From: Aquificota bacterium
GTDB lineage: Bacteria > Aquificota > Aquificia > Aquificales > Hydrogenothermaceae
Direction: 5' to 3'
Assembly: GCA_013153635.1 (NCBI GenBank)
Contig: JAADDZ010000014.1
Coordinates: 130,341-194,340, forward strand
DNA: 64,000 nucleotides
Positions 52,966 through 64,000 of this stretch are shown piece after piece. Under the pieces are notes generated by a model. It worked only from the letters and a program-made list of their open reading frames with translations. It searched no databases and had not been told where the DNA came from. Position numbers and translations under genes: made by a program. Positions within the stretch are counted from its first letter, which is position 1. The number at the start of each line of letters is the position of its first letter.

Positions 52966-54411
<1,446 letters not shown>

Positions 54412-54423
54412 ATCATCTTCTCT

Positions 54424-54441
54424 AGGGGCTTTTAAGCCCCT
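54424..54441 (+). terminator. Rho-independent-type terminator after atpD
   Basis: AGGGGCTT / AAGCCCCT hairpin with a very short TT loop, followed by a T-rich run interrupted by C (TTCTTACCTCTCTTTT). It lies 13 bases after the atpD stop and separates the ATP synthase genes from the CRISPR-Cas operon. Confidence 0.75.
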
Positions 54442-54530
54442 TCTTACCTCTCTTTTAATATCCCCTTTTGTTAAAAGTCAGATTTTTATAATCTAAATCG
54501 TTTTTAGACTTAAAAGTTAGTAATTAATAA

Positions 54531-54560
54531 TTGACATGTTTTATAGTTTTGTACTTAAAT
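54531..54560 (+). promoter_or_regulatory. Promoter of the csm operon
   Basis: Consensus TTGACA (54531-54536) with TTAAAT (54555-54560) at an 18-base spacing, about 30 bases before the csm1 ATG. The -10 is imperfect, but the -35 is exact and the position suits. Confidence 0.55.
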
Positions 54561-54590
54561 ATATTTGTGATAATAAGGGGGATATACTAA

Positions 54591-57173
54591 ATGGACAACC
54601 AAAAACAAAAGTACCTCACAGCCCTAGCTGGTCTATTTCACGACATAGGAAAGTTCTACCAAAGAGCAACTAATACAAAAACATCTACAGAAGAAAAAAG
54701 TCAGTTCGGCTACGCCCACGCAGTTTTATCTGCAAAAGCAATAAAAGAAGAACTCAACGAAGGTCTATCTGCCGTATTTTCTCCAGAAGAGATTGATTTT
54801 ATCCTTGAAGGCACATACCATCACAAGCCTAAAAATCCTATCCAGTATCTAATGCAAAAAGCTGACTGGGTTTCTTCATCTGAAAGAGAAAAAGCAGAAG
54901 CAGAATATCTACTAACTATTGATGAACTAAAAGAAGAGATAAAAAATCTATCCGAAAAGAATCCCCGTCTAAGAAGTATATTCGAAAGGTTAGAACTTGG
55001 GAAAAACTTAGAAAAAAGAGGGTTCGTCTACAAAATAACCCCTCTTGAGCTAAATGATGATATATTCCCTCTACATCTAGAAGAAGATGTTCACAACGAA
55101 ATCGCCAAATCTTTCAAAGAAATAGAACAACTTCTTGGAAGTTACAAAACCCACTGGAATGCTTTTAAGGAAGAGTTTAACCAAAAGCTAAAAGACTCAA
55201 AACTGAAATTTAGTGAGAATCCTGAAAAAGTGTTTAGTCTTATTTATCATATATTTTACAAATACCTATGGTGTATCCCCGCCTCTACTTATGATAGAGA
55301 GAACTACTCAAGTCATTATCCGGATATATCCCTTTTTGATCACTCAAGGGTCTTGTCTGCAGTAGCTTGCTGTTTTTATGATTACGATAAAGATGGTTTT
55401 CAGCAGAAAACCCCCGCAGAATTTGAAGAAAAGTTAAAAGATAAAAATGTGTTTCTACACCTAAAGGGAGATATAAGCGGAATTCAAAAATTTATCTACA
55501 ATGTTTATCAAGGAAAAGGAGGTATCGCCAAAACTCTTAGAGGAAGGAGCTTTTATGTGGCAATGCTTCCTGAAGTACTATCTAGATACATTTTAAATGA
55601 ACTTGGTTATCCTATCTCAAATCTTCTATACTCTGGCGGTGGTATATTTGAAATATTGGTCGCTAATACAGAGGAAAACAGAAAAAAGCTAAAGGAAATA
55701 GAGGACAAAATAAATGAATTTTTAGCCAGAAAATTTGAAGCTGATTTGGGACTTTCAATTGGAACTTATGAGTATTCCCCAGTTGAACTGATGACAAATT
55801 ATGAAAACATTTTAGAACGGCTAAATGAGAGTTTAGATAACGCTAAAAAACAAAAATTTAAGGTAATTATAGAAAGTGGAAATATCTTTAAATTATTGAA
55901 CTCAAATTCCAAAAAATTAGAAGAAGAAAATAAAAAGAAAAAGAAATGTCCAGTTTGCCAAACATACCTAATTGATGAAAATTTAGAAGGAGATAATGAA
56001 CTTTGTGCTGTTTGTAAAGAATTTAGAGACATCGGAGATAATCTTCCACGAACAGAAACTTTAGTCTTTGCAAAAGAAAGCACCCAAAATTTTGTAGAGA
56101 ATAAAAAATTAATTGATTTTGGAGATTTTGGTATTGTCTATCTACTAACGAAGGATAACTTTACTGATTTACAACCTATATATTTTGATAAAAAAACAAC
56201 GGAAATTTTAGATATAAATGATACAAAATTAGATAAATACATAACAGGTTTTAAGTTTATAGGCAAATCTGTTCCAGAGGTAAAAGAAAAAGAAAAATTA
56301 TCTCCAGAAGAAACAGGAGAGGAAGAACCTATACATAGCGGTCAGATAGCACCTTTTACATATCTTGCAAAACTGTCAGATGGAGATGAAAGAATAGGGA
56401 TTCTTAGAATGGACGTTGATAACCTTGGAAAGCTATTTAGCAAAGGACTCAAAGGAAAAATATCCATTTCACGAATTGCTACATTAAGCCGTTCGTTAGA
56501 CCTGTTTTTTGCAGGTTATTTAAATAAAATAACCCAAAAACTTACCGATAGGTACAAGGACAAAATAGAAAACCTAAAAGTGGATAACCTGTTTTACATA
56601 CTCTATTCTGGTGGAGATGATGTATTTTTAGTCGCACCTTGGGATAAAGCCATAGAAATATCACAAAAGATAAATGAGGAATTTTCTAAATATACGTGTA
56701 AAAATCCCAATGTTTCCATTTCAGCCGGATACTTACAAACAAAACCAAAATTCCCAATAAGAGTATCTGCTGAGATGGCAGGTGAAACAGAAGATAGAGC
56801 CAAAAAGGCTGGAAAAGATAGAATTTGTGTTTTAGGTGATGTTTTCAAATGGGAGGAGCTAAAGGATATAAAAGCAAAAGTAGAAGAATGGGCAAAAAAG
56901 ATAAAAGGTGACCAACTTCAAAGAGGTTTTATCTATGCAGTCCACAGACTAAAAGAACAGTTTTTAAAAGATGAACAAGAAAGGTCAAAACTAGTTTTCC
57001 CTTATAAAAGAGAAGAAAATCCAATGTTTTACCCATACGCTCAATACTACATAGCAAGGAATATAAAAAGTGAAGAGCTAAAAGAAGAAATTGCTAAGTT
57101 TTTGTTAGATAAGAAAAATTTCAACAAGTTAACTTTTACTGTTAACTATGTAGCACTTAAAACAAGAAAATAA
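54591..57173 (+). CDS. csm1: Type III-A CRISPR Cas10/Csm1
   Basis: Signature subunit of the Csm interference complex, 860 residues. The N-terminal HD nuclease domain has LFHDIGKFYQ (H17, D18). A treble-clef-like zinc site has CPVC (453-456) and CAVC (472-475). The second palm domain has the cyclase motif YSGGDDVFL (GGDD 674-677). HD and GGDD intact means both DNase and cyclic oligoadenylate synthesis should be possible once target RNA is bound. It heads the operon; csm2-5 follow, with two unrelated small genes inserted. Confidence 0.95.
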   Translation: MDNQKQKYLTALAGLFHDIGKFYQRATNTKTSTEEKSQFGYAHAVLSAKAIKEELNEGLSAVFSPEEIDFILEGTYHHKPKNPIQYLMQKADWVSSSEREKAEAEYLLTIDELKEEIKNLSEKNPRLRSIFERLELGKNLEKRGFVYKITPLELNDDIFPLHLEEDVHNEIAKSFKEIEQLLGSYKTHWNAFKEEFNQKLKDSKLKFSENPEKVFSLIYHIFYKYLWCIPASTYDRENYSSHYPDISLFDHSRVLSAVACCFYDYDKDGFQQKTPAEFEEKLKDKNVFLHLKGDISGIQKFIYNVYQGKGGIAKTLRGRSFYVAMLPEVLSRYILNELGYPISNLLYSGGGIFEILVANTEENRKKLKEIEDKINEFLARKFEADLGLSIGTYEYSPVELMTNYENILERLNESLDNAKKQKFKVIIESGNIFKLLNSNSKKLEEENKKKKKCPVCQTYLIDENLEGDNELCAVCKEFRDIGDNLPRTETLVFAKESTQNFVENKKLIDFGDFGIVYLLTKDNFTDLQPIYFDKKTTEILDINDTKLDKYITGFKFIGKSVPEVKEKEKLSPEETGEEEPIHSGQIAPFTYLAKLSDGDERIGILRMDVDNLGKLFSKGLKGKISISRIATLSRSLDLFFAGYLNKITQKLTDRYKDKIENLKVDNLFYILYSGGDDVFLVAPWDKAIEISQKINEEFSKYTCKNPNVSISAGYLQTKPKFPIRVSAEMAGETEDRAKKAGKDRICVLGDVFKWEELKDIKAKVEEWAKKIKGDQLQRGFIYAVHRLKEQFLKDEQERSKLVFPYKREENPMFYPYAQYYIARNIKSEELKEEIAKFLLDKKNFNKLTFTVNYVALKTRK

Positions 57174-57233: not shown

Positions 57234-57581
57234 ATGGATTACTTTAAAAAACCTCTGTCTTTAGGAGAACTTTATGATATGTTTGGTGAAGATTTACATT
57301 ACAGTGAAATCAAAAAGATGGAAGGAATAACTTTAGAAGATTTATACTACATAGAAAAACTACAACCTAAAGTAAGAACAGTAATAAATTCAGATTTCGT
57401 TAAATTCCTAAAACTTATAAAAAATTGTAAGAACCCAAGAGATGTCAAAATTCTATCAGAACGATTCTTTCATGTATTAATAGACCCAAAAGAAATAGAT
57501 AAAGAAACATCATTAGAAGAAAAATATGACCTAGCTTATAAAGAAGCGATAAGAATTTGGGAAATTAAAAAGGAGGATTAA
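57234..57581 (+). CDS. Unknown protein encoded between csm1 and csm2
   Basis: 115 residues with a strong ribosome site (AAGGAGGT). Soluble, acidic-to-neutral and rich in helix: LSLGELYDMFGEDLHYSEIKKMEG, then DFVKFLKLIKNCKNPRDVKILSERFFHVL and an acidic C-terminal helix. It has one cysteine, and no signal peptide or CARF, HEPN or RAMP signature that I can see. It is shorter than Csm2 (the next gene) and not obviously its duplicate. Four bases separate it from csm2, so it is part of the operon. Function unknown; candidates are a complex accessory or regulator. Confidence 0.75.
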   Translation: MDYFKKPLSLGELYDMFGEDLHYSEIKKMEGITLEDLYYIEKLQPKVRTVINSDFVKFLKLIKNCKNPRDVKILSERFFHVLIDPKEIDKETSLEEKYDLAYKEAIRIWEIKKED

Positions 57582-57584
57582 CCA

Positions 57585-58019
57585 ATGGGCAATAACCCAA
57601 TCGAAGAATTTACACAAAAAATAGAAAGAGCCTCTTCTTTATCTGAAGTTCTATTACCAAAGGAATTTGCTCCATTTGAAACGGGTTGGGCTTTTAAGAT
57701 AGTTAAACAACTAAAGGAGCAACATAAAGATGATAAAAGAAAATATCCTGAATTCAAGACAACACAACTAAGAAAAATATTTACGGAAATTAAGGAAATA
57801 TGCCAAAGAAAAGACAAGGAACGCCTTTACTTACTTTATCCGAAATTAGCATATTCAAAGGGTAGGAAATTAATCCCTGATAACTTTTACAAATTGATTG
57901 TAGCTTGCTTGGATAAATTAAAAACAAGTAATAATGAAGAAGATTTTGAAAGATTTGAAGAATTTATTACCGCAATCGTGGCTTATAACAAATATGAAGA
58001 AAGTAATGAAAATCAATAA
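57585..58019 (+). CDS. csm2: Type III-A small subunit Csm2
   Basis: 144 residues, helical and basic. The family signature is the C-terminal stretch KERLYLLYPKLAYSKGRKLIPDNFYKLIVACLDKL (landmark only). Csm2 forms the inner small-subunit filament of the Csm complex. Four bases after the preceding orphan gene; ribosome site AGGAGG. Confidence 0.9.
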   Translation: MGNNPIEEFTQKIERASSLSEVLLPKEFAPFETGWAFKIVKQLKEQHKDDKRKYPEFKTTQLRKIFTEIKEICQRKDKERLYLLYPKLAYSKGRKLIPDNFYKLIVACLDKLKTSNNEEDFERFEEFITAIVAYNKYEESNENQ

Positions 58020-58041
58020 ATATTAGGAGGTACAAACAAAA

Positions 58042-58461
58042 ATGAAATATTTTTCTTCGTTTTTAATGGTACTTTTCCTTATAGGATTTTCCTTTTCTGA
58101 AGAAAAAAAAGAGCCTATTTTTTTAGGAGTAGTGAAAAATAATGCCATTCCTTATCTAAAGGAGATTATACCTTCTATAAAGATAAAAGATGTAACATAC
58201 ATGAGTATAAGTAGGTTTGGAGGAAGTCTCTTTATACTTAAAAACTATAAAAACCCTGTAGATTTTTATATAGATTTTGAGGAAAAAGCAGTAAAAGAAT
58301 TAAAAGATTTTGCAAAAACTAAATGCAAAGAGAATCATTTTTATATGTTAGATAACTTTGACATTTCTATAACAGAAGTAGAACAAGGTGGTATGTTTTT
58401 TAAAGCTACCTGTAACGTTATCTGTGCAAATATCAACTTAAACCTAGGAGGAAAAAAATGA
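58042..58461 (+). CDS. Exported protein of unknown function inside the csm operon
   Basis: 139 residues with a clear N-terminal signal peptide (KYFSSFLMVLFLIGFSFS, likely cut before EEKKE) and no lipobox cysteine. The mature part has strands and two helices and three cysteines in all (KCKEN; TCNVIC). The C-terminal half (KELKDFAKTKCKENHFYML ... GGMFFKATCNVICANI) loosely recalls small YbjQ-like periplasmic folds, but I cannot assign a family. AGGAGGT lies 10 bases before the ATG, and its 3' end overlaps csm3 by 4 bases, so it is translated within the operon. A secreted product among cytoplasmic interference genes is odd. Confidence 0.75.
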   Translation: MKYFSSFLMVLFLIGFSFSEEKKEPIFLGVVKNNAIPYLKEIIPSIKIKDVTYMSISRFGGSLFILKNYKNPVDFYIDFEEKAVKELKDFAKTKCKENHFYMLDNFDISITEVEQGGMFFKATCNVICANINLNLGGKK

Positions 58462-59285
58462 GTTTTAACTATCAAGGCACTTACATAATTAAAACCAATT
58501 TAAAATGTATAACAGGTCTTCATATAGGCGGTTCTAAAGAAAGTTTCGAAATCGGTGGAATTGACAATCCTGTTATAAAAACTCCAATATCAATCAAACT
58601 TGAAGACAGAGAGATAAAAGAAGGAATGCCCTACATACCCGGTTCATCTTTAAAAGGCAAAATACGAAGCTTACTTGAATGGCAGTATGGATTAGTAGGA
58701 GTAAAAAAGAATGATGGAAAAATAAAACACAAAATTAAATATGTTCAAGATGAAAACACCCTTAATGATGTAGCCATTGTTTTTGGAATCGGAGCTAACC
58801 TCGAAGACGAGCTTAAAAATAAAAAACTACACCCACAACCAGTAAGAATAAAATTCTATGACGCATATCCAACTAAAGATACGATAAATAAATGGGAAGA
58901 AGAATTAGGAGCAGGCTTATACACAGAGATAAAAACAGAAAACGCCATTGACAGAATAACTTCCGCCGCAAATCCAAGACAGCAAGAAAGAGTACCAGCA
59001 GGTTCAGAATTTGAAGTTGAGATAATTTATGAAGTATTTGATGATAATGACCACAACAGATTAAAAATAGTTTTTGAAGGTATGAAAAGACTTGAAGACA
59101 ACTTCTTAGGCGGTGGTGGTTCAAGGGGAAACGGTAGAGTGAAGTTTGGCAATATAAAAATCAAATTCAAAAGTAAAGAAGCATATACAAATCCATCTAT
59201 CCAACCAAAGGAAGAAGAATTCGGGTCGGTAGATAAAGCTATAGAAAATTTTGAAAAGATTAAAAAACTTACAGAAGGTAAATAA
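58458..59285 (+). CDS. csm3: Type III-A RAMP protein Csm3 (target RNA nuclease)
   Basis: Backbone subunit that coats crRNA and cuts target RNA every six bases. It has 275 residues. The catalytic-loop segment LHIGGSKESFEIGGIDNPVIK contains D36, aligning with the active-site Asp of known Csm3 proteins. RAMP glycine loops are PGSSLKGKIRSLLE and LGGGGSRGNGRV. It overlaps the exported-protein gene by 4 bases. Confidence 0.94.
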   Translation: MSFNYQGTYIIKTNLKCITGLHIGGSKESFEIGGIDNPVIKTPISIKLEDREIKEGMPYIPGSSLKGKIRSLLEWQYGLVGVKKNDGKIKHKIKYVQDENTLNDVAIVFGIGANLEDELKNKKLHPQPVRIKFYDAYPTKDTINKWEEELGAGLYTEIKTENAIDRITSAANPRQQERVPAGSEFEVEIIYEVFDDNDHNRLKIVFEGMKRLEDNFLGGGGSRGNGRVKFGNIKIKFKSKEAYTNPSIQPKEEEFGSVDKAIENFEKIKKLTEGK

Positions 59286-59288
59286 AAA

Positions 59289-60236
59289 ATGAATCTTTAC
59301 AAAATAGACATTAGCCCCTTGTCTTTATTCAGAGATTACCCATCTTCTTATACACTATTTGGGGCGATAAGCTGGGGATATTATTTACTCTTTGGAGAAG
59401 AAAAATTAAAAATTCTACTTGAAAACTTTGCAAATAATAATCCATCTTTTCTTATAAGCTCCATTCTACCAAGAGAAGATAATCAATACTTTTTCCCAAA
59501 ACCAAACCTAAGAGCAGAAAGAGAAAAAGATTCTGATATTGATTATAAAAGATTAAAGAAAATCCAATATATCAGCTTAGACATTCTAAAAATGATTTTA
59601 GATAACCAAATAAAAACAGAACTAGAACTTAACAAAATATTGAATAAAATTCAACCAAAAGAAATCTCATTAACAGCAAAAGACTCGATACCCCATGCTT
59701 CCATTGACAGACTCTATAATACTACAGAAGGAGCAGGGGGGCTTTTCTTTGAAGAAATAGTAGCATTGGAAGAAGGATTTATTTTAATAGCGGTCAAAGA
59801 CAAAGAAACTAAAAAAGAGCTTCAAGCAATTTTTAACCTTTTAGAAGATATTGGTATTGGTGGAAACCGTTCAGTAGGTTATGGAAGAGTTATATTTGGC
59901 AAATTTGAACCCTTTAAAGAAATAGATATATATTTTTCTAAAAAAACAGATAAAATTTTAACCCTTTCTCCTATAATTCCAGAAAAAAACACCTATGATT
60001 TATCAGATAGCTATTATGATTACTTCACATTTAGAGGAGCGATTGATAATAATTATAACTTTAAAGACGTAGATATATGGAAAGATAAGGTTATTTACCT
60101 AAAAGAAGGTTCAACCTTAAAAATTAAAAACCAAAAAGAAACCTATGGACAATTTTACTTAGCAAAAAATCTAAACGGCAAGAAAATCTTTCAATACGGA
60201 CTTGCATTTCCTTTATTTATTCAAGGGGGAACATAA
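59289..60236 (+). CDS. csm4: Type III-A RAMP protein Csm4
   Basis: 315 residues, Cas5-like subunit that caps the 5' handle of crRNA and contacts Cas10. The N-terminal SPLSLFRDYPSSYTLFGAISWGYYLLFG and the glycine-rich loop LLEDIGIGGNRSVGYGRVIFG are typical for Csm4. It lies three bases after csm3 and three bases before csm5. Confidence 0.92.
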   Translation: MNLYKIDISPLSLFRDYPSSYTLFGAISWGYYLLFGEEKLKILLENFANNNPSFLISSILPREDNQYFFPKPNLRAEREKDSDIDYKRLKKIQYISLDILKMILDNQIKTELELNKILNKIQPKEISLTAKDSIPHASIDRLYNTTEGAGGLFFEEIVALEEGFILIAVKDKETKKELQAIFNLLEDIGIGGNRSVGYGRVIFGKFEPFKEIDIYFSKKTDKILTLSPIIPEKNTYDLSDSYYDYFTFRGAIDNNYNFKDVDIWKDKVIYLKEGSTLKIKNQKETYGQFYLAKNLNGKKIFQYGLAFPLFIQGGT

Positions 60237-60239
60237 AAA

Positions 60240-61442
60240 ATGAAGTATACATTAACAACCCTTTCACCAATTCACATAGGAAACGGAGACCAAATTAGCA
60301 ACTGGTCTTATGGATATGATGAAAAAGAGAAACTCATAAGCGTTTATGACTTTGATAAAGTAGTAAAAGCATTAAAAAATAATCCTCAAAGACTTTTAAA
60401 CCTTTCTGCAGAAATCGAAAGAAATCCATTAAATAAAAGTCTAGGGAAAATTTTAAAAAATTATAATTTGAATTTAAATCCAGAATACAAGATAAAAATA
60501 AGAGGTGAAATTAAAAATCGCAGATACAAACACATCTGGGAATTTATAAAAGAAAACGGAAAAGTTTACATTCCCGGAACAGAAATAAAAGGAGCAATAA
60601 GGACAGCCCTTTTTTACAAAATACTAAAGGATAAGTTTAAAGAAAACACCAAATTAAAAGAACAATTCTTAAAAGAATATGAAAAATGTTTAGATGTAAA
60701 AAATTACAGAGATGATAAGGATAGAAAAAAGCAGATACAAAAAAAGTTTTCAAATTTGGAGAAAAGATGGGAAAGTATAGTTTTTAGAGCTGGATTTGAA
60801 AAAGTTTTTGATAAAGAATTTAAATTTGAAGATGCTAAAAAAGACATACTGAAAATACTTCTAATATCCGACTCAAATTTTAAAAATCCAGAAGAAGTTT
60901 TAGAAGTTAAAGACATTACACCTATTGGAGTTTCAAAGAAATTTAAAGATTTACACGAAATTGTTAAAACTAGTAGCAAATTTTATATAGATATGAGAAT
61001 ACCATTCCAAAATGAATATAAAGAGATATTTCCAGAAACTTACAAATACTTGGGTATGAAAAAGCTTAGAGAAGCCTGCTCTGATTTTGCAATTAGTCTT
61101 TTAGAAGCAGATATAGAATACTTAAAAAAAACAGAAGAATTAGAACCAAAGATAAAAAGCGAAATTATCAAAAGATTAGAACAAAGAAAAGAAATTGCAC
61201 AAATAGCAATAGAAACACAAGACCCCCAGAAAAAATATTTTCTCCTCCGCCTTGGCAAACATCAAGGATTCTTAAGCACTACTATTAATCTTTTAGTGAA
61301 AGAATTAGACTCTGATTTATACTCAAAAGCATATAAGTATTTAGTTCATATAGGTTATCCTGAATTTCCAAACAAATCCAGAAAAATAACTATAGACAAT
61401 GAACTTTTAGGCTGGTGTGTTTTAATACCAAAGACCACTTAA
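60240..61442 (+). CDS. csm5: Type III-A RAMP protein Csm5
   Basis: 400 residues, located at the 3' end of crRNA in Csm complexes and linked to crRNA trimming. The N-terminal LTTLSPIHIGNGDQISNWSYGYD and the glycine loop YIPGTEIKGAIRTALFYKIL are characteristic. It is the last csm gene. No csm6 or cas6 follows; the CRISPR array begins 75 bases downstream, and the gap between them shows no clear feature. Confidence 0.93.
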   Translation: MKYTLTTLSPIHIGNGDQISNWSYGYDEKEKLISVYDFDKVVKALKNNPQRLLNLSAEIERNPLNKSLGKILKNYNLNLNPEYKIKIRGEIKNRRYKHIWEFIKENGKVYIPGTEIKGAIRTALFYKILKDKFKENTKLKEQFLKEYEKCLDVKNYRDDKDRKKQIQKKFSNLEKRWESIVFRAGFEKVFDKEFKFEDAKKDILKILLISDSNFKNPEEVLEVKDITPIGVSKKFKDLHEIVKTSSKFYIDMRIPFQNEYKEIFPETYKYLGMKKLREACSDFAISLLEADIEYLKKTEELEPKIKSEIIKRLEQRKEIAQIAIETQDPQKKYFLLRLGKHQGFLSTTINLLVKELDSDLYSKAYKYLVHIGYPEFPNKSRKITIDNELLGWCVLIPKTT

Positions 61443-61517: not shown

Positions 61518-62009
61518 CTTTCTATCCCACTTCGTTCAGATAAAACAAGAACTTTAATTTAAGTCCCCCCTCTGTTTGTTAGACTTTCTATCCCACTTCG
61601 TTCAGATAAAACATTAGCCAAAATAAATAACAACATAATAATCATATAAGGCTTTCTATCCCACTTCGTTCAGATAAAACTGATAGTACAATTTTGACAA
61701 AGTTAAAAAATGTAGACTTTCTATCCCACTTCGTTCAGATAAAACCACTGGTACTCTACAAAATGTATCTCCATAAGTGTCCTTTCTATCCCACTTCGTT
61801 CAGATAAAACTCTAAGAGAATATCTGTTATAGCCCATCTATCTGCTAGCTTTCTATCCCACTTCGTTCAGATAAAACTTTTTATAAAAAGAAGGAAGCAA
61901 AGCTACTGCTTCCTTCTTTCTATCCCACTTCGTTCAGATAAAACAAACACTGCATCGTCTATAACATTTTTTATTCTCAACTTTCTATCCCACTTCGTTC
62001 AGATAAAAC
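61518..62009 (-). CRISPR. CRISPR array, 8 repeats of 29 bases and 7 spacers
   Basis: Eight repeats, identical over 29 bases (plus strand begins CTTTCTATCCCAC and ends TTCAGATAAAAC), start at 61518, 61584, 61652, 61717, 61782, 61849, 61916 and 61981. Spacers are 37, 39, 36, 36, 38, 38 and 36 bases. The likely transcribed strand is minus. Read that way, repeats run from GTTTTATC to GATAGAAAG, ending in ATAGAAAG, much like the 8-base crRNA handles of type III systems, and a promoter lies to the right. S7 (61945-61980) would then be the newest spacer. No degenerate terminal repeat is seen at either end. Confidence 0.97.
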
Positions 62010-62319: not shown

Positions 62320-63441
62320 TCATTCCACCTGTGCCACTCCGATTATTGATAAACCAAAACCAAGTGGATTTATTTTTATTTTTTCTTTAGACTGTGGGTT
62401 TTCTTCCTCTTTTTCTTCAAAATATGGATACTCTTTCACAAAAAACGCAGGTTTTAGCCAGTATTTATCAAAAATATCATCTAATTTACTCTCATCTTTT
62501 AACTCATAATAAAATACAGAACCAGCAGGAATAAGCTTGAACAATCTAGAAGGAAAACTATCTATTTTTTTGCCGTCATCATACACATTAAACCAACCAC
62601 TAAAAGCTATTGGTTTACCTATTAGCTGGGCTACCAGTTCAGCTCCTTCTATTTTTGGTGGATAGTTTGTTGGAGTTAAAAGAATGATTTTGAAGTATTG
62701 GTTTTCCTTTATTTTTTCTTTTATATCTTCTTCTGGTAAGCTTAATTCATTAAATTCTTCTATCTCATCTATAAATATTTGAGCTGTTTTACTTTCCCCA
62801 GCAAAATCCACTATATAATCATTCTTATCAAAAGACTTTTTGGATTTACCACTAAAAGCAACTATAATGTCTATATCAACATATCCTTTTTCCGAAGAAA
62901 AATAACTTCTACTTTCTATATAAAGATTTCCCTCTTTTGCGGTATTTGTTTTTCTGTCTATTTCTAATCCTGTTTCTAACTTTATAGATAAAATTTTGAA
63001 TTCTTTTAAAGAATTTAATTTTTCTTTAACTTTTTTTAAATTATGTTTATCTTTCCTCCAAATTTTTAATCTTTTAGTTTTTAAACTTGTTATACCAAAC
63101 TCACCCTTAAAATGTTCTCCTTTTAAATATATACGAAAATCATCTTCTTTAAGTATTTCTATGTTAGGTATTTTTATATTTGCTATAGGTTTTGGAATTC
63201 CATGTTTAGAGAGATAATAAATATAGTCAATAGGAAAAGGGAAATAAAAGGTATTATATAAAAATTTATGAATGCCTATAAAATTAATATTCAAAGAAGA
63301 AAATCTTTTCTTTAAAGCAGAATAAATATGTGTATTCAAAATTATAACATCATTAAATCTAAATACATTTTCTCCTGCATTAAAAGGTTTCCCATTTCCA
63401 AAAACAAAATAATCTTGAGCTAAAATTTTTGCTTTAAACAT
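62320..63441 (-). CDS. cmr3: Type III-B RAMP protein Cmr3
   Basis: 373 residues. It matches the Cmr3 plan: an N-terminal DYFVFGNGKPFNAGENVFRF followed by THIYSALKKRF; a middle FSGKSKKSFDKNDYIVDFAGESKTAQI; then IAFSGWFNVYDDGKKID, LFKLIPAGSVFYYELKD and the closing NPLGFGLSIIGVAQV. Cmr3 binds the 5' handle region and Cas10 in type III-B complexes, the role Csm4 plays in III-A. It lies on the strand opposite to the csm genes, 11 bases after the HEPN gene. Other cmr genes would have to be to the right, outside the window. Confidence 0.87.
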   Translation of the reverse strand: MFKAKILAQDYFVFGNGKPFNAGENVFRFNDVIILNTHIYSALKKRFSSLNINFIGIHKFLYNTFYFPFPIDYIYYLSKHGIPKPIANIKIPNIEILKEDDFRIYLKGEHFKGEFGITSLKTKRLKIWRKDKHNLKKVKEKLNSLKEFKILSIKLETGLEIDRKTNTAKEGNLYIESRSYFSSEKGYVDIDIIVAFSGKSKKSFDKNDYIVDFAGESKTAQIFIDEIEEFNELSLPEEDIKEKIKENQYFKIILLTPTNYPPKIEGAELVAQLIGKPIAFSGWFNVYDDGKKIDSFPSRLFKLIPAGSVFYYELKDESKLDDIFDKYWLKPAFFVKEYPYFEEKEEENPQSKEKIKINPLGFGLSIIGVAQVE

Positions 63442-63452
63442 ATTTACAACCC

Positions 63453-64000
63453 TTATAATAAATTTTTTATAGATTGTGGTATATTTCTGTATAAACCTCT
63501 TATAAAGCTTTCATATTTCAGATTATTAAGAAAGTTTTTATATTCATCTTTACAATTTTCATCTAATATATTTTTTACCTGTTCCTGCCTTTCTCCTTCT
63601 CCTAAATTATGACTACCAGCATTTCTTAAATTTGTTAACAGACACCAATATTTTATACATTCATTTTCTTCTTTTTGTAATTCATTATTACAGCAGTTAA
63701 ATTTATCCTCGTCTCTTAAATTTTCCCCTAATCTTCTATATAGTTTTCGTTTTCTTAAAAGAAAATCTACCCCGAACTTATATTGATTTCTTTTATCATA
63801 TGAAAACATTTCACTTTCACTTATCCCTTCATCTTCCATATATTTAGACCTGATACTTTCCTGAAGTGTTATTAGTCCAAGCAATAATCTATCATTTTTT
63901 AAATGCCATATTGCCAGTTCTAATTGTTTCTCAGAAATTTTGCTTTTATCATTAATTTTCTTTATAAAATCTTTTAAATCTTTGTGAATGATGTTTAAAG
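63453..64000 (-). CDS. HEPN-domain protein, C-terminal part (probably CARF-HEPN, Csx1/TM1812-like)
   Basis: The reading frame is open to the window edge, so the N-terminus is missing; at least 182 residues are seen. The segment is helical (LELAIWHLKNDRLLLGLITLQESIRSKY) and carries LLTNLRNAGSHNLG, an R-x4-H motif typical of HEPN RNases. The pattern of a helical domain ending in RNxxxH next to type III genes fits the C-terminus of Csx1/Csx2 (TM1812) proteins, whose N-terminal CARF domain binds cyclic oligoadenylate. The CARF domain itself is not visible, so this is an inference. It precedes cmr3 by 11 bases. Confidence 0.72.
   Translation of the reverse strand, partial: LNIIHKDLKDFIKKINDKSKISEKQLELAIWHLKNDRLLLGLITLQESIRSKYMEDEGISESEMFSYDKRNQYKFGVDFLLRKRKLYRRLGENLRDEDKFNCCNNELQKEENECIKYWCLLTNLRNAGSHNLGEGERQEQVKNILDENCKDEYKNFLNNLKYESFIRGLYRNIPQSIKNLL

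Follow-up and report, generated by a model that had tools for sequence, protein, structure and literature searches.

A gene for a predicted exported protein occupies an optional position between csm2 and csm3 in type III-A operons of Aquificota

We analyzed a 64,000-nucleotide stretch of an Aquificota bacterium genome (GCA_013153635.1, contig JAADDZ010000014.1; hereafter, the window), in which a complete type III-A operon carries a gene for a small protein with a signal peptide between csm2 and csm3. Judged from its sequence, this protein is most likely exported to the periplasm and folds there. It is an optional, probably co-expressed envelope passenger or accessory and not a core Csm subunit, because ten copies of its family are found away from CRISPR loci and the presence of the family does not follow that of csm genes genome-wide. 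Taken as a whole, the explanation toward which we lean is that of a Sec-exported periplasmic protein from an Aquificota family, residing in the csm operon as a cassette and acting independently in the envelope.

A conserved gene inside a complete csm operon

The gene is co-oriented with cas10 and csm2–csm5, begins 22 nt after the csm2 stop codon and ends with a 4-nt overlap between its own stop and the csm3 ATG (Table 1). A real gene at this position, with its own ribosome site and a 4-base csm3 overlap, had been proposed in a first-pass annotation and is confirmed here. Curated profiles identified the full III-A set of cas10, csm2, csm3, csm4 and csm5, followed by a CRISPR array, with the identities of csm2 and csm3 backed by Pfam, NCBIfam and PADLOC. 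In comparisons among the csm-linked copies, substitutions are rarest at codon position 2 and most frequent at position 3; the frame is, therefore, under protein-level constraint. Because of this substitution pattern and the conservation of the frame in four assemblies at the same position, a chance open reading frame (ORF) is excluded. An assembly artefact was likewise rejected, as four separate assemblies contain the gene in the csm2–csm3 slot. The gene would be co-transcribed and translationally coupled with csm3.

Table 1 Features of the csm operon and the exported-protein gene (window coordinates)
Feature	Position	Strand	Basis
cas10/csm1, HD and GGDD motifs	54591..57173	+	TIGR02578, E 5.5e-182; motifs in sequence
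csm2	57585..58019	+	PF03750, E 4.8e-18
AGGAGG ribosome site of exported-protein gene	58025..58030	+	Sequence; 11 nt upstream of ATG
Exported-protein gene (cassette), 139 aa	58042..58461	+	ORF and translation; homologues with identical layout
Predicted Sec-type signal peptide, residues 1–19, inferred cleavage between SFS and EE, no lipobox	58042..58098	+	Sequence; conserved in 14 aligned relatives
Mature domain, predicted beta-alpha-beta-alpha-beta-beta, RcsF/DUF1471/YbjQ-like fold	58099..58458	+	AlphaFold2 and fold searches
Cys95, invariant in family	58324..58326	+	A4 alignment
C124-N-V-I-C128; C128 invariant, C124 only in four csm-linked copies	58411..58425	+	Alignment
AGGAGG ribosome site of csm3	58446..58451	+	Sequence; inside 3' end of exported-protein gene
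csm3	58458..59285	+	TIGR02582, E 2.6e-64
csm4	59289..60236	+	TIGR01903, E 1.1e-47
csm5	60240..61442	+	TIGR01899, E 1.9e-27
CRISPR array, 8 repeats	61518..62009	+	Rfam RF01352 and direct repeats

Predicted signal peptide and conserved cysteines

Inspection and hydropathy assigned a classical-looking signal peptide to the N-terminus (MKYFSSFLMVLFLIGFSFS, followed by EE), without a lipobox. A signal peptide is present in 14/14 aligned relatives, nearly all of which display a short positive n-region, a hydrophobic core and a small-residue end, followed by a charged stretch. The clean signal peptide noted in the first pass is, thus, retained as a predicted Sec-type sequence kept in all full-length relatives. 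If the protein is exported to the periplasm, it cannot belong to the Csm complex, which is cytoplasmic.

In an alignment of 14 members that includes the full-length copy from genome G030 and was used for the cysteine counts (A4), Tyr38, Cys95 and Cys128 are invariant (14/14). A CN[IV][IV]C motif near the C-terminus occurs in 4/4 csm-linked copies and 0/10 others, a post hoc contrast among related copies for which the Fisher test (p = 0.001) serves as a guide. Cys95 and Cys128 may form a disulfide that stabilizes the protein in the periplasm. Of two oxidation-related families searched for in the source genome, VKOR gave no match and thioredoxin-4 (DsbA-like) gave one. The cleavage site being only inferred, the N-terminal helix might instead be a membrane anchor, or the protein might stay in the cytoplasm as a Csm subunit; the signal-peptide-like architecture of nearly all relatives and the invariant cysteines make this reading very improbable.

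Predicted fold of the mature domain

Neither Pfam, NCBIfam nor PADLOC returned a significant match for the window protein, and PDB sequence searches yielded only chance matches. A PDDEXK_14 hit (E 0.039) was rejected because it fell below the cut-off, involved one member only and conflicted with predicted export. AlphaFold2 models were built, on alignments of only three sequences, for the window protein (pLDDT 73) and its homologue from genome G018 (pLDDT 82.5); both show a single domain with a beta-alpha-beta-alpha-beta-beta arrangement. YbjQ/DUF74 structures rank first for both models (Z 7.8 and 8.4; Foldseek E 6e-4 and 2e-3), with 3qkb, 1y2i and 1vr4 as best matches (Z 7.2 to 8.4; Foldseek probability 0.93–1.00 for the best chains); this comparison with the PF01906 fold rests on two predicted models, and a Z near 8 may reflect a common arrangement. 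Below them appear DUF1471 domains, the IgaA periplasmic domain, FvfA and RcsF, amid many unrelated capsid entries with similar Z. YbjQ, DUF74, DUF1471 and RcsF share one fold, and an initial short strand plus helix is characteristic of its DUF1471 and RcsF versions (PMC4092069). The predicted models contain both elements, the strand being weaker in the G018 model than in the window model. The models, thus, make an RcsF/DUF1471/YbjQ-like fold likely, as distinct from membership of those families.

Profile comparisons with YbjQ, RcsF and YdgH revealed no sequence kinship. The YbjQ_1 profile (PF01906) gave no match at E 10 for the window protein and none at E 5 for other members, and an hhalign comparison with seven family members returned P 0.039. 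While YbjQ/UPF0145/DUF74 proteins provide the best structural matches, the window protein differs from them in its predicted export and in having no Pfam match. The DUF1471 proteins SrfN, YdgH and BhsA resemble it as exported, stress-linked domains with the first short strand and helix (PMC4092069; Z 6.8 to 7.1 to the model) but lack conserved cysteines; DUF1471 had no Pfam match, and hhalign to YdgH covered the signal peptide only. RcsF and the IgaA periplasmic domain, which serve envelope stress sensing in E. coli, resemble the window protein in its predicted export, small alpha+beta domain and predicted topology (Z about 5 to 6.5 to the models; 4.8 to 6.4 for the RcsF periplasmic domain), and RcsF also has cysteines. 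Sequence inspection, however, placed the cysteines of the window protein at positions other than those of RcsF, and it lacks the RcsF lipobox. The mature domain, initially described as unassignable, accordingly stays unassigned by sequence, while a fold can now be proposed from AlphaFold prediction.

A small family in Aquificota

Whole-genome searches located the family in 14/136 Aquificota genomes, after one of 15 listed entries, a weak signal-peptide match, had been left out. No convincing member was found in ~255 genomes outside Aquificota, where the weak matches that were opened mainly reflected signal-peptide similarity or unrelated genes. Viral contigs and phage and plasmid records contained no detectable relative; two staphylococcal phage matches (E 0.2–0.3) were dismissed as chance. 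The family is small and fast-evolving and, by these sequence searches, so far known only from Aquificota.

Ten family copies lie outside CRISPR loci in varied contexts. A second member in the source genome adjoins birA, as does one in G001, and G002 retains a fragment of the birA-side member. Others adjoin sbcD, proC, mnmE, or dnaA together with a DEAD-box helicase gene (names read from translations). The family, therefore, also occurs without any link to CRISPR. We also observed that dnaA lies immediately upstream of the csm operon in two genomes and that a non-CRISPR family member abuts the dnaA 3' end in two others (L117, L120, L029 and L009 for both observations). A divergent probable member with extra cysteines and a YGTAFC end was noted at L050:1387-1821 (-).

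Filled and empty csm2–csm3 sites

The slot is filled in 4/56 csm2–csm3 pairs from 48 genomes, and the four filled sites belong to four genera, with two of the carriers being a Hydrogenothermus and a Persephonella metagenome-assembled genome. Profile-based gaps between csm2 and csm3 measure 443–474 nt in filled sites and 25–83 nt in the remaining pairs, except for one apparent large gap in G101 that proved to be an incomplete profile match with no insert. An empty site comprises the stop codon of csm2, a ribosome site and the ATG of csm3, to which a filled site adds one further ribosome site; the csm order is unchanged in all four carriers. Presence in 4/56 pairs falls well short of the general presence in III-A operons expected of a core Csm subunit, and 8/12 related III-A operons lack the gene. 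A literature search, mostly covering papers outside subscription journals, turned up no description of a csm operon that contains a gene for a signal-peptide protein.

As for a type III accessory, the slot is shared by four genera, yet the family does not co-occur with csm3 genome-wide (csm3 in 7/14 genomes with the family and 42/122 without; p = 0.26). The recurring CRISPR neighbourhood that the first-pass annotation had proposed to look for was found, always at the same slot, but the linkage is not exclusive. Scattered homologues without recurring linkage had been named as the outcome that would speak against a CRISPR association, and of these two elements only the scatter was observed.

Evolution of the csm-linked copies

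In a csm2–csm5 tree, the carriers do not form a clade (p-AU 4e-12). The window operon is sister to the empty G030 operon, G019 to the empty G023 and G018 to the empty G013, with G003 outside; three of the four carriers, thus, have an insert-free sister. Parsimony requires a minimum of four changes, either one gain and three losses or four gains. Monophyly of the csm-linked protein copies was not rejected (p-AU 0.46) in a poorly resolved protein tree, which, like the first identity matrix, was computed with the G030 copy lacking its last 9 residues. The window, G003 and G018 copies are 45–51% identical, compared to 71–76% for csm3, making this the fastest-evolving gene of the operon; the G019 copy shares 26–36% identity with the other csm-linked copies, while its csm3 shares 67–72%.

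We favor one capture followed by losses or exchange between csm operons, because CN[IV][IV]C is shared by all four copies and a single origin was not rejected; the gene would have been lost or moved repeatedly since its capture. A mobile single-gene cassette that inserted repeatedly and independently at the csm2–csm3 junction could also account for the non-clade distribution and the divergence of the G019 copy relative to its csm3. The shared motif runs counter to this, no integrase or repeats were seen at the junctions, and a single slot would hardly be struck four times in the absence of a targeting mechanism, so that repeated insertion appears improbable.

A plausible alternative, somewhat less likely than not, is that an envelope gene entered the operon once, has no immune role and is being lost. 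Its patchy presence through repeated loss or gain, its rapid evolution and the scatter of relatives across unrelated operons are as expected for such a neutral passenger, but all four csm-linked copies keep the frame and cysteines, change least at codon position 2 and have CN[IV][IV]C in common.

Possible roles of the exported protein

Among the possibilities raised in the first pass, an unrelated gene captured by the operon fits best; an accessory function is possible. As the most tentative steps of the preferred explanation, the exported protein would act alone in the periplasm, in the manner of related folds under envelope stress, being neither a Csm subunit nor a cyclic-oligoadenylate effector, and the cassette would be carried because expressing it together with the immune operon is tolerated or slightly beneficial. 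Enterobacterial proteins of the RcsF/DUF1471/YbjQ fold sense or modulate envelope stress. No CARF, SAVED or other known sensor or effector domain was significantly matched in Pfam, NCBIfam or PADLOC.

The same annotation had also suggested an envelope arm of immunity. Such a protein would be selected within the III-A response and might, for instance, sense or limit envelope damage caused by phage, or block entry as Csm degrades transcripts. Predicted export agrees with this suggestion, as do the recurrence at an identical slot in four genera with conserved csm order, the cysteine motif specific to csm-linked copies and the predicted RcsF- and IgaA-like fold. In Serratia, CRISPR and surface immunity are under coordinated control of the Rcs envelope response (PMC8450108), and RcsF-dependent signalling responds to mechanical compression in phage predation work (PMC10746221); we treat these parallels as analogies. 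Since the gene is optional and lacking from most related operons, has been gained or lost repeatedly, differs between sister operons and has ten relatives outside CRISPR loci, with no genome-wide co-occurrence and carriers that form no clade, an envelope arm seems unlikely. Marginally less likely still is the specific form in which a soluble periplasmic protein of RcsF-like fold is a functional III-A accessory that detects or limits cell-surface damage caused by phage.

The type III membrane effectors Csx23, Cam1 and CorA (PMC11229360) offer another precedent for an envelope-related gene tied to a type III locus. Nucleotide second messengers activate these effectors, which are integral membrane proteins (PMC11229360), whereas the window protein is predicted to be soluble, exported and devoid of a sensor domain. 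Known type III envelope effectors are, thus, membrane proteins driven by cytoplasmic signals, and a soluble exported protein kept in the csm operons of four genera would, if functional, represent a different link between RNA-guided immunity and the envelope. Even as a passenger, it clearly illustrates how a compact cas operon can naturally accommodate an optional cassette, the site being filled in one operon and empty in its sister.

Neighbouring genes

Several further genes were noted in or near csm operons. In the window, the operon begins 180 bp downstream of atpD, which encodes the beta subunit of F1 ATP synthase on the same strand (52966-54591) and is not followed there by atpC. A 115-aa hypothetical ORF lies between cas10 and csm2 (57234-57581, +) and had no convincing homologue among 41 genomes of the host family. 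Two csm operons encode a small protein with one likely membrane helix upstream of cas10 (L111:49-450 and L112:168-551), featuring a conserved DP.YC.LP.NI.H..C stretch and an Asp/Trp-rich tail. Lastly, a Cmr3-like gene and a Csx1-like gene represented by its C-terminal part (62320-63998, -) run off the contig end, which suggests that a second locus, of type III-B, lies opposite the csm operon.
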